Positions 3,435-7,603 of a stretch of 20,042 bases of DNA are shown piece after piece; position 1 is the first letter of the stretch; the number at the start of each line of letters is the position of its first letter. The notes under the pieces are model-generated. The model had not been told where the DNA came from. It was given only the letters and a program-made list of their open reading frames with translations, and did not search any database. The translations under genes and the position numbers were made by a program. This DNA comes from a virus: positions 1 to 20,042 of IMG/VR virus record IMGVR_UViG_3300020213_000136. One strand, 5' to 3'.

Positions 3435-3671
3435 ATGGCTATAAAACCTGCAATTAACTGGCTCGGAATCACTACCTTCATGGTCGCTATGGCAGGCATC
3501 GTTTGGGCCGGTTCGGAAAAGCTCGCTGAGAAGGCCAATCAAAGGGACGTTGAGGCCTCGAGTCGCAAGATCGATTCCATTGAAGCGCGCCAGCAGTACA
3601 TCCGAGAGGACTTGCAGCAGATTCGAGAGGACATAAGGCAGATTTTACAGGAAGTGAGGAAGAAGCGCTAA
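3435..3671 (+). CDS. Small membrane-anchored coiled-coil protein
   Basis: A 78-residue protein with one hydrophobic segment (residues about 8-26, WLGITTFMVAMAGIVWAG) followed by a long charged helix with heptad spacing (SSRKIDSIEARQQYIREDL, then LQQIREDIRQILQEVRKK). A single N-terminal membrane anchor plus coiled coil is seen in phage holin-associated, spanin-like and superinfection-exclusion proteins, but none of these can be chosen from sequence alone. It lies directly after the repeated AAGTGT site and its stop overlaps the next start (TAATG). An AGG at 3421-3423 is the only weak ribosome binding site. It is odd to find a membrane protein immediately before the connector genes. Confidence 0.65.
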   Translation: MAIKPAINWLGITTFMVAMAGIVWAGSEKLAEKANQRDVEASSRKIDSIEARQQYIREDLQQIREDIRQILQEVRKKR

Positions 3672-4578: not shown

Positions 4579-5015
4579 CCGAGTTCGAGTTGTACGAAGA
4601 CCTGTCGGACTTCTTCGGTGACGGCATGGTCACAGCTGGCTACGTTTTCGGAACGACGCTTCTGGTCGAGTGGCCAGGAACCAAACTGGACGTGCCGCAC
4701 TTGACCGGGGATGCCACTAATGGACACGTTAAGCCCTGGATTCGGTACAACTACCGACCGGTTGCCGGCGGCCAGGCCACCCTCGGATCCAGGTTCTTCA
4801 CGAACGGCGTGATTATCCACCAGATTTTCACCCCTCCTTACCAGGGCTTGCAATCCGCACTTTCCATTGCCGACAGTGTGAGAAGTGTATATGATGGTAA
4901 TGTAAGTGTTGGCGGTGTCTGGTTTCGGAACACTCGCCCCCAAGTTGTAGGTCTAACCGGCGGATGGTTCCAAGTAAACGTAAGTGTGAATTTCGAATAC
5001 GACTTCACGAGGTAA
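4575..5015 (+). CDS. Tail terminator protein (DUF4128-like)
   Basis: This 146-residue protein resembles the DUF4128 tail-terminator group: an N-terminal helix, then LLVEWPGTKLDVP, a strand ending WIRYNYRP, LGSRFFTNGVIIHQIFTPPYQG, a helix (LQSALSIADSVRSVYDG), and a C-terminal strand pair (GGWFQVNVSVNFEYD). The terminator caps the tail tube at its head end and stops polymerisation. GAGG at 4563-4566 provides the ribosome binding site, and the start overlaps the upstream stop (ATGA). Codons at 4875-4909 use AGT, AGA and GTA where the surrounding gene prefers C- or G-ending codons; this stretch is copy B of the repeated AAGTGT site, so coding and a second DNA function appear superimposed. Confidence 0.75.
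   Translation: MTEFELYEDLSDFFGDGMVTAGYVFGTTLLVEWPGTKLDVPHLTGDATNGHVKPWIRYNYRPVAGGQATLGSRFFTNGVIIHQIFTPPYQGLQSALSIADSVRSVYDGNVSVGGVWFRNTRPQVVGLTGGWFQVNVSVNFEYDFTR
4867..4909 (+). promoter_or_regulatory. Repeated regulatory-like site, copy B; candidate internal promoter
   Basis: TTGCCG (4867-4872), a 17-nt spacer and TATGAT (4890-4895) make a good sigma70-type promoter. The spacer carries the tandem CAGTGTGAGAAGTGT motif. Bases 4874-4890 (CAGTGTGAGAAGTGTAT) are identical to copy C at 6517-6533. Another AAGTGT follows at 4904-4909 and a lone one at 4982-4987. The site lies inside the tail terminator gene, about 130 nt before the tail tube gene, where an extra promoter for the most abundant tail protein would make sense. 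Confidence 0.45.
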
Positions 5016-5021
5016 ACAGAG

Positions 5022-6524
5022 ATGGCACAAGTAGACAAAATTGACAGCAACAGCACCGGTCTCTGCTACCGGGAAGAGACCTCCCCCGGAGTCGTGACGA
5101 GCGGCGTTTGGACCGGCATGGAACCGAACAGCTACTCGAACTTCGGGGCCACTCTTACGCTTCTGCCGCGCGAGCCGCTTAGCGCTTCACGCCAACGCAA
5201 GAAGGGCGTCGTCGTAGACATCGAAGCGTCCGGCGCGTTCAACATGGACCTCACGCAGGTGAACTTTGCCGACATTGCGCAAGGCTTCTTCTGCGCGGCC
5301 CTTCGCAAGAAAGACGAGGCGGCTTGTGCAGCGACTACTGGCGGCGCTACCGATGACTTTACTGTTGCTGCCTCTCTCGGCTCTGATTACGTGTCTGGTG
5401 ATCTTGTGTTTGCCGGTGGTTTTGATGATGCGGCGAACAACGGTCTTCACGAATGTAACGGCTCCTCCGCTACCACTATCTCGGTCACTTCGAACCTCGT
5501 AACGGCAGCCTCCCAGGCTGGCGTTCTTCGCCGGGTCGGATTCAAGTTCGCCGCTGGCGATTTGACCATGGTGGTTTCCGGCACTCTGCCGGTGCTTACC
5601 ACGGTCTCCAAAGACATGACTGCCTTCGGATTGGTACCGGGCGAGTGGGTCTACATCGGCGGCGACTCAACAGACAAATTCTTCACTGCGGCCAACAACG
5701 GCTTCGCTCGGGTGCGCTCTGTGACGGCTAACGCCATCACGGTGGACAAGATGCAAGGCACTGCGATTGCCGACGACGGCACGAATACCGGAGCCGGCGG
5801 CGCAGCACTGTCGCTGAAGCTCTTCTTCGCGCCCCGCGTCTTGAAGGACGAATCGGACCCGACCCTCGTGATCGAGAAGACCTATCAGCTGGAACGCTCC
5901 TTGGGCGTATCGGACGATGCGCAACCGACTCAGATCCAGTCTGAGTATTTGATTGGCGCGTACGGCAACGAATGCACCTTCAACCTCGGCACGGCCGACA
6001 AAGTCACTTGTGACCTGTCGTTCTTGGCTCTCAACCACGAGACCTACACCGGGGCCGAAGGCCGCAAGGCCGGTACTCGTCCAGCTATCGAAGATGCCAA
6101 CGCCTTCAACACCAATAGCACCGTCACGTTCGCGCAGATTGCACTGGTGTCCGACACTGATGAGACCGTGGACCCCCTGTTCGCTGGTATCGAAGAAGTC
6201 AAGTTGACCATCAACAACAACCTCCAGGCCAACAAGGCTCTCGGTACGACCGGTGCTTTCTGTGTGTCGAAGGGGTTCTTCTCGGTGTCCGGCTCGATGA
6301 CGGCGTACTTCAACAACGTCGAAGCCATCGACTCGGTCATCAACAACTCCGACGTGACCTTCCACTATCACCTGGGCGACGGTTCGCCGAACGTGGAAGT
6401 GAACAACCCGGTCAAGATCCCGTTGACGTTCGAGGCCGCCTCCGGTGCTCAGTCGTTCGCGGACTACGACCACACCTTGTGTGTTTGCTTCTGGGACTAC
6501 CTTCCGACCGCAGCCTCAGTGTGA
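5022..6524 (+). CDS. Major tail tube protein
   Basis: The 500-residue product begins with a region typical of the siphophage tail tube family Phage_tube_2: CYREETSPGV, then NSYSNFGATLTLLPREPLS, RQRKKGVVVDIEASGAFNMD. Its C-terminal half carries the matching EVKLTINNNLQANKALG, FSVSGSMTAYFNN and VTFHYHLGD strands. Between them are two copies of a small beta unit (about 126-168 and 207-250; compare DLVFAGG with EWVYIGG, and AANNGLHECNGSSATTISV with AANNGFARVRSVTANAITV). The subunit is long for a tube protein because of these units. ACGAGG at 5007-5012 serves the ATG. Copy B of the repeated site lies upstream and copy C overlaps its stop codon. Confidence 0.85.
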   Translation: MAQVDKIDSNSTGLCYREETSPGVVTSGVWTGMEPNSYSNFGATLTLLPREPLSASRQRKKGVVVDIEASGAFNMDLTQVNFADIAQGFFCAALRKKDEAACAATTGGATDDFTVAASLGSDYVSGDLVFAGGFDDAANNGLHECNGSSATTISVTSNLVTAASQAGVLRRVGFKFAAGDLTMVVSGTLPVLTTVSKDMTAFGLVPGEWVYIGGDSTDKFFTAANNGFARVRSVTANAITVDKMQGTAIADDGTNTGAGGAALSLKLFFAPRVLKDESDPTLVIEKTYQLERSLGVSDDAQPTQIQSEYLIGAYGNECTFNLGTADKVTCDLSFLALNHETYTGAEGRKAGTRPAIEDANAFNTNSTVTFAQIALVSDTDETVDPLFAGIEEVKLTINNNLQANKALGTTGAFCVSKGFFSVSGSMTAYFNNVEAIDSVINNSDVTFHYHLGDGSPNVEVNNPVKIPLTFEAASGAQSFADYDHTLCVCFWDYLPTAASV

Positions 6525-6543
6525 GAAGTGTATGGATTATAAC
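6517..6543 (+). promoter_or_regulatory. Repeated regulatory-like site, copy C
   Basis: CAGTGTGAGAAGTGTAT (6517-6533) is identical over 17 bases to copy B, and TATAAC follows at 6538-6543 as a possible -10. No convincing -35 is seen. The site covers both the tail tube stop (TGA 6522-6524) and the GTG start of the protease (6521). If it were a promoter, its transcript would begin downstream of that GTG and could not supply this gene, so an operator or other role is at least as likely. Confidence 0.4.
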
Positions 6544-7138
6544 GCTGGCCGCGCTCTGGCTGTCCTGCGGGGCACGCCAGAGTCCCGGCCAGCATCGTAA
6601 CCAAGCAACTGTCGCTGTCGCCATCTTCTGTGAAGGTAACGACGTCGGCAGCGGCTCGGGCGTGTTCATTACCGCCTCTCATGTACTCACCGCTGCGCAT
6701 GTCACGAAGGTGTGTCCGAACTCAGAGTTCGAGATTGAGCTGGAGAACGGCGACCGCTACCCCGCTCACGTAGACAAGGCATGGTCGGGCATGGACCTGG
6801 CTCGCCTGAAAGTTACCGGCAAGTACGCAGGTAGCCAAAAGCCGATCACGCGCATCGGGTCCAAGCTCGAGGTAGAGGACGAAATTTGCTTTCACAGCGG
6901 AGCCCCGAGCCGGGACATCCGCTGCGGCCGTGTCGAGAGTATCTCGCCGACCGGCCTCGGCAACGTCAAACACAGCGCCATTGTCGAACCGGGTAACTCC
7001 GGGTCGCCCGTGTTCGATAAGCACGGCGCGCTTGTCGGCATCATCACGCACTATCGCAAGTGCAACAACGGCCAGATCTGCGGTGGCCGTTTCTCGTCCA
7101 TTTGGGACCGTAAGTTTGTGTTGACCGAAGTGCAATAA
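6521..7138 (+). CDS. Exported trypsin-like serine protease
   Basis: The 205-residue product has a complete chymotrypsin-type triad: His60 in SGVFITASHVLTAAHV, Asp92 in GMDLARLKV and Ser160 in EPGNSGSPVFD, with GIITHYRK after the Ser as in S1/HtrA-like folds. No PDZ domain follows. Residues 1-18 (MRSVWIITLAALWLSCGA) form a signal peptide; Cys16 follows LS and could be a lipidation site, although Trp at -3 is atypical. Seven cysteines allow disulphides, which suits periplasmic action. GTG 6521, overlapping the tube stop as GTGA, is chosen because no other start precedes His60 except TTG 6479, which is deep in the tube gene. No clear Shine-Dalgarno is seen. Processing of a virion protein, host envelope degradation or exclusion are all possible. 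The fold is confident; the role is unknown. Confidence 0.8.
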   Translation: MRSVWIITLAALWLSCGARQSPGQHRNQATVAVAIFCEGNDVGSGSGVFITASHVLTAAHVTKVCPNSEFEIELENGDRYPAHVDKAWSGMDLARLKVTGKYAGSQKPITRIGSKLEVEDEICFHSGAPSRDIRCGRVESISPTGLGNVKHSAIVEPGNSGSPVFDKHGALVGIITHYRKCNNGQICGGRFSSIWDRKFVLTEVQ

Positions 7139-7165
7139 AGCCCTTCGACACAAAAGAGGAGACAT

Positions 7166-7603
7166 ATGAAAAAGGGACTGTGGGCGCTCCAAACGGACAC
7201 CAAGAAGGAAACCGAGGGTACGTGGATCGACCATCCGAAGATGGACATCCGCTTCAAGATCCGCCGTACGGGAGGGGAAAACAGCGACTTCTCCAATGCC
7301 GCTAACAAAGTCATGCGCCCCTACTGGCGTATGATGGAAGGCGGCAAGAACAAGAAGCCGGACGAGAAGCTTCTCAAGTCCGCCAACGAGAAGCTCGCGG
7401 CGCTGTATGCCGAGCATGTTCTCATGGACTGGTCCGGCGAGGACGTTGTGGACGAAGAGGGCAACGCCCTGGCGTTCACTGTCGAGGCAGCCACCAAGGT
7501 GCTGCGAGACGTTCCGTCATTATTCGGCTGGGTTCGGGACCAAGCTATCGAAGAGGACAATTTCCGCTTCGACTTTGACTTGGAAGAAGAATCGGGAAAC
7601 TAG
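7166..7603 (+). CDS. G: Tail assembly chaperone (gpG-like)
   Basis: A 145-residue, mixed charged protein just upstream of the tape measure region. It contains KMDIRFKIRRTGGENSDFSN, then WRMMEGGKNKKPDEKLLKSA, an ACT-like LYAEHVLMDW followed by GED..DEEGNALAFT and an acidic end (FDFDLEEESGN). This strand-helix arrangement and WSG/LPF-type turn are common in siphophage chaperones, which coat the tape measure before tube polymerisation. AGAGGAG at 7155-7161 is a strong ribosome binding site. The last two codons before TAG form a lambda-type slippery heptamer, so a fraction of ribosomes should extend the protein (see 7166-8019). The symbol is by analogy with lambda. Confidence 0.8.
   Translation: MKKGLWALQTDTKKETEGTWIDHPKMDIRFKIRRTGGENSDFSNAANKVMRPYWRMMEGGKNKKPDEKLLKSANEKLAALYAEHVLMDWSGEDVVDEEGNALAFTVEAATKVLRDVPSLFGWVRDQAIEEDNFRFDFDLEEESGN

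Follow-up and report, generated by a model that had tools for sequence, protein, structure and literature searches.

A gene for a probably lipid-anchored, HtrA-like serine protease inserted between the tail tube and tail chaperone genes of a YuA-like siphophage

The virus contig analyzed here (20,042 bases, the whole of which is called the window) carries at 6521..7138 on the + strand a serine protease gene of 205 aa, running from a GTG start to a TAA stop, that is best explained as mobile cargo, with a probability of roughly 0.7. The product would be a small Sec-exported, probably lipid-anchored HtrA-like protease that works in the host envelope and takes no part in the virion; its gene lies inserted between the tube stop codon and the ribosome-binding site of the chaperone gene in a YuA-like siphophage. 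The observed basis of this explanation is the fold family, the catalytic triad, the hydrophobic N-terminal export segment, the insertion relative to related phages, and the finding of homologues in unrelated phages at positions that have nothing in common. The frame, stop and coordinates of the ORF match those given in an earlier, sequence-only reading, which had described an exported trypsin-like protease among the tail genes.

The protease matches the Pfam Trypsin_2 model with an E-value of 1.3e-16 and 62.1 bits, above the curated threshold of 27.6, and the Pfam Trypsin model with an E-value of 4.5e-8 and 33.6 bits (cut-off 20.6); among proteins of solved structure, the relatives identified by sequence are HtrA3 and HtrA1. 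The catalytic residues His60 (codon 6698..6700), Asp92 (6794..6796) and Ser160 (6998..7000, within PGNSGSPVFD), all on the + strand, show no variation across 16 aligned viral homologues, where they lie in the contexts TAAH, D-L-A and GNSG; the complete triad named in the sequence-only reading is borne out, and its loss was not seen in these homologues. The AlphaFold2 model, built from 16 viral sequences, has a mean pLDDT of 86.1, exceeding 90 over most of the barrel, and a pTM of 0.81, and together with Foldseek it gives a chymotrypsin-type double beta-barrel, for which the best PDB matches are the protease domains of Deg1, DegP, DegS and HtrA1 (E about 1e-11 to 1e-12, TM about 0.7). At the C-terminus, a single short helix follows straight after the final barrel strands, and neither the Pfam search nor the AlphaFold2 model contains a PDZ domain. 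The proposed placement in peptidase family S1 is upheld by Trypsin_2, the model and Foldseek; by sequence and model the protein is a member of this family, with predicted proteolytic activity. Trypsin has Asp189 at the position matching Ile154, the residue six before Ser160, so Lys/Arg specificity is not expected, and what is known of the family makes an HtrA-like preference for aliphatic residues more likely. The earlier label "trypsin-like" holds for the fold and probably does not hold for specificity, given Ile154 and the HtrA/DegS character of the best structures.

Compared with the closest homologue found (L174, IMGVR 3300038379_000399, 65% identity), the gene has a dN of 0.35 and a saturated dS, and identity is 37% at third and 77% at second codon positions, which indicates a coding gene under strong purifying selection. 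Codon usage, GC3 and base composition are those of the neighbouring genes; foreign codon usage is thus ruled out, and the gene has either ameliorated or come from a similar donor.

The protease frame is open from 6164, and its candidate starts are GTG 6479 and TTG 6485, both within the tube gene, then GTG 6521, then Val48. The two upstream starts merely add residues to the N-terminus, and Val48 falls within the trypsin core, so that every viable start retains the hydrophobic segment WIITLAALWL; GTG 6521 is the best of them. The N-terminal signal, MRSVWIITLAALWLSC, comprises an h-region and a lipobox-like LWLS followed by Cys16 (6521..6568, +), which fits the permissive PS51257 pattern and is non-canonical, with an unusual W at -3. 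Clearer lipoboxes occupy the corresponding position in homologues, namely FIGSC in L174 (GLVFFIGSC) and LLSAC in L030, and the protease of the related phage G003 likewise reads LLSAC. Judging from these motifs, the window protease is probably a lipoprotein rather than a plain type I export, although cleavage by signal peptidase I after CGA18 is possible. The sequence-only reading is sustained as to the presence of an export signal, which no alternative start yielding the protease removes. Among small viral trypsins, a hydrophobic N-terminus occurs in 41 of 45 and a lipobox in 19 of 45, the latter against a background of 0.013 expected per equal stretch in the remainder of those 45 trypsins. 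In addition, six core cysteines (Cys37, 65, 122, 134, 182 and 189) are all kept in L174, and L032, a more distant homologue, has residues aligning with Cys37, Cys122 and Cys134, the latter two numbered one higher in that alignment. Such conservation suits an oxidising compartment, in which Cys37-Cys65 and Cys122-Cys134 would be the likely disulphide pairs.

The neighbours of the protease gene in the window are a head-tail adaptor, head closure, tail terminator, tube, two chaperone ORFs, neck protein, tape measure and hub, and no lysis cassette surrounds it. The tube and hub relate to those of Pseudomonas phage YuA, Stenotrophomonas phage Bhz59 and other siphophages, making this a YuA-like tail module. 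Upstream lies the tail tube gene (5022..6524, +; Pfam Phage_tube_2, 4.8e-23; phrog_290, 1.3e-43), which shares with the protease gene a GTGA start/stop overlap at 6521..6524 (+) by which the protease is likely to be translationally coupled to the tube. Downstream lies tail assembly chaperone 1 (7166..7603, +; phrog_313, 1.8e-25), which retains its own Shine-Dalgarno sequence AGAGGAG at 7155-7161; the protease stop is 27 nt ahead of the chaperone ATG, and the gene fills the tube-chaperone gap. Just ahead of its stop, the first chaperone ORF also holds a correctly framed GGGAAAC slippery heptamer (7594-7600), from which the -1 frame stays open to the point where the second chaperone ORF ends, and this looks like the classic programmed frameshift of tail chaperones.

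The distance from tube stop to chaperone start is at most about 200 nt in YuA, Bhz59 and 85 of 90 metagenomic relatives, as expected from the earlier statement that these genes are usually adjacent; the five exceptions (L008, L009 and L137, which are of one type, L100 and L115) have small non-protease ORFs there. A protease occurs between tube and chaperone in none of about 90 related loci, a set that includes a few contigs fetched twice. By this comparison of sequences, the protease is an extra gene at a site where relatives have none, and the view of it as a non-standard insertion is supported. It resembles a classical phage moron in being an inserted gene missing from relatives at the site, but differs in having no promoter or terminator of its own: no sigma-70-type promoter match lies near 6521, and no terminator match follows 7138 on the + strand.

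The start codon was also said to lie inside a repeated motif, and this 17-bp exact direct repeat, CAGTGTGAGAAGTGTAT, is real, with one copy in the tail terminator gene (4874-4890, +) and the other across the tube/protease junction (6517-6533, +), spanning the start at 6521. A direct 17-mer repeat arises in 1 of 100 Markov-simulated windows, and this one was not found in related loci. The sole sigma-70-type promoter match overlaps the 4874-4890 copy, in a count no higher than that of shuffles; a regulatory role is unsupported, as no relative carries the repeat, which is possibly a microhomology from the insertion or a product of chance.

Several other features of the window and its relatives were recorded. 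A 78-aa ORF (3435-3671) that immediately precedes the head-tail adaptor gene combines a single transmembrane segment at its N-terminus with a coiled coil; the same spot holds a spanin, holin and endolysin in YuA and Bhz59, and no endolysin or spanin was recognised in the window. Consecutive ORFs at 174-2692 have repeated segments resembling (DG)PFRLTT..LP.GL..ATDYW, with no useful Pfam match, and are possibly virion decoration or fibre proteins. In three YuA-like contigs (L012, L013 and L020), a gap of about 330-350 nt following residue 66 divides the match to the head-tail adaptor, as if a segment had been inserted in or beside the gene. Two tandem tail-terminator-like matches lie upstream of the tube in G003/L004 (L004, 5276-5958) and also in L023, which suggests a duplicated terminator gene.

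A direct search of viral and genome collections with the window protease gave no homologue, and profile and motif alignments were needed. The L174 homologue shares with it the six core cysteines and a lipobox but occupies a different site, about 10 nt after a primase/helicase gene and before an exonuclease gene; the window's tube and hub were not found in this contig, which, like L032, is partial, so that missing tail genes there are no proof of absence. The YuA-like relative G003 (IMGVR 3300031772_000127; L026, 1399-2070, -) has a lipoprotein trypsin between a MuF-like head-morphogenesis gene and a scaffold gene, of which L023 has a partial copy. It is similar to the window protease in its lipobox, its small Trypsin_2 domain and its location within a structural operon, again in a YuA-like phage, but the identity is only about 21-26% and the site is another, so it was probably acquired separately. 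Other small exported viral trypsins adjoin the portal gene (L061, L073), the terminase gene (L045, L042, L062, L070, L175), a DNA polymerase exonuclease gene (L031, L059) or a repair exonuclease gene (L054, L087, L089). Lysis genes are further neighbours: an endolysin and a holin with three transmembrane segments in L044, a spanin in L054, and a spanin and a lipoprotein in L087; in L033 an amidase gene lies two genes on, and the L032 trypsin follows overlapping Rz/Rz1-like ORFs, judged by eye, near an integrase-like gene. In L044 (7860-9762), the protease, endolysin and GTA-type holin are consecutive, forming a compact lysis cassette that opens with an exported trypsin. Lysis neighbours turned up in some 5 of the roughly 25 contigs examined, a figure that comes from post hoc annotation with no matched control. 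Two candidates were set aside, namely L027, a GenBank phage match surrounded by bacterial-type genes, and L028, a huge phage too distant to inform. Since the catalytic and export features are kept while the position shifts across modules, the simplest reading is cargo that acts on the host and belongs to no single module, and the tail-operon position looks like an incidental cargo site.

Among known systems, the protease domain of HtrA, DegS and DegP (S1C) has in common with the window protease the chymotrypsin-type double barrel, the triad, the Trypsin_2 domain and a periplasmic location, predicted for the latter; the window protease differs in lacking PDZ, in being a probable lipoprotein and in its extra conserved cysteines. 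NCBIfam HtrA equivalog and subfamily models score it at no more than about 34 bits (33.6) against cut-offs of 250-800, and with no PDZ domain, membership of the HtrA/Deg family proper is ruled out. Phage defence proteins (LmuA, RT-protease, Avs1b) were also rejected, as the trypsin-domain cross-matches cover part of the profiles only and the neighbours are tail genes. Phage trypsin-like proteases are already annotated in rhizobial phages, and it is the insertion site that is unusual here. These include 16-3 p036, phiM9 gp099, P10VF_080, RHph_X2_25 and RHph_TM3_3_14B (compare phrog_9683, "protease"), and a trypsin-like protease is common to one alphaproteobacterial phage cluster (PMC10783043). 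They are likewise of Trypsin_2 type, mostly 210-240 aa, with a hydrophobic N-terminus and a cargo-like position, but they are distant, being reached only with L087 as query, and those read have no clear lipobox. No published function for them and no functional study of exported phage trypsins was found in the literature searched, whose coverage leaves out many journals; a large survey of spanins makes no mention of proteases (PMC6139136).

The proposed course of events is as follows. The protease would be translated late in infection, coupled through GTGA to the tube protein, and would then be exported, acylated at Cys16 and disulphide-bonded. By the E. coli rule, Gly at +2 of the acylated cysteine would favour the outer membrane. 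The enzyme may then cleave host envelope or periplasmic proteins, and the prediction of action in the envelope, made in the sequence-only reading, is supported as a reading. Its most likely use would be the late weakening or remodelling of the envelope, either as a lysis aid or for superinfection exclusion, which are about equally probable. The lysis aid is at most slightly ahead, given the late-operon location of the window copy and the presence of several relatives within lysis cassettes; since the L174 copy belongs to a replication operon and the sample is uncontrolled, both benefits stay in play.

As a lysis auxiliary, which is a tentative proposal, a periplasmic lipoprotein protease would cut proteins of the outer membrane or the tethers of the envelope, making the outer membrane give way once endolysin and spanin have acted. 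The five contigs with nearby lysis genes (L044, L054, L087, L032, L033) and the late co-expression expected of the window copy agree with this, but the closest homologue is probably expressed earlier, most other family examples adjoin packaging or DNA genes, and YuA-like relatives have a complete lysis cassette without the protease. In superinfection exclusion or a change of the host surface, the protease would remove or alter an outer-membrane receptor or degrade incoming phage proteins in the periplasm. Mobile cargo of variable position in early and late operons would suit such a role, as would the integrase-like gene beside the L032 copy and the probable lipoprotein form, which is shared with lipoproteins known to act in exclusion, Ltp of Streptococcus thermophilus phages among them (PMC3952083). 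This proposal is likewise tentative; the 20-kb fragment has no lysogeny gene, and late expression from a tail operon would be poorly timed.

A helper of envelope quality control, clearing misfolded periplasmic protein in the manner of DegP/DegQ so that the host stays productive, is suggested by the nearest structures (HtrA, DegS, DegP) and is improbable given the missing PDZ domain and the NCBIfam scores far under the cut-offs. Least probable is a role in morphogenesis or in the virion, with the protease processing tail proteins or being carried in the tail. The position in the tail operon and the likely co-translation with the tube speak for it, but the export signal would part the enzyme from cytoplasmic assembly, about 90 relatives with the same tail do without it, and the window's tube was not found in the partial contig of the nearest homologue. 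Similarly, a specific tie to the tail is unsupported, and the earlier suggestion that the enzyme may cut the phage's own tail fibres is unlikely to hold, as the homologues lie in replication, head, portal, terminase, polymerase and lysis contexts.

Phage proteases are usually regarded as cytoplasmic maturation enzymes. A tentative extension is that HtrA-like proteases of small size, without PDZ and either exported or lipid-anchored, form a widespread, undescribed class of envelope effectors in phages; they would cut proteins of the host envelope to aid outer-membrane rupture or to block competitors, the window copy having been captured into a tail operon. This wider pattern of exported, often lipid-anchored proteases is a more interesting claim than the window copy itself, which, if the claim is not true, would be one further cargo gene. 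If it is true, phages would also put proteolysis to use in the envelope of the host, whether to lyse it or to exclude other phages, and this would mean an extra proteolytic step in the lysis of Gram-negative hosts or a new mechanism of exclusion.
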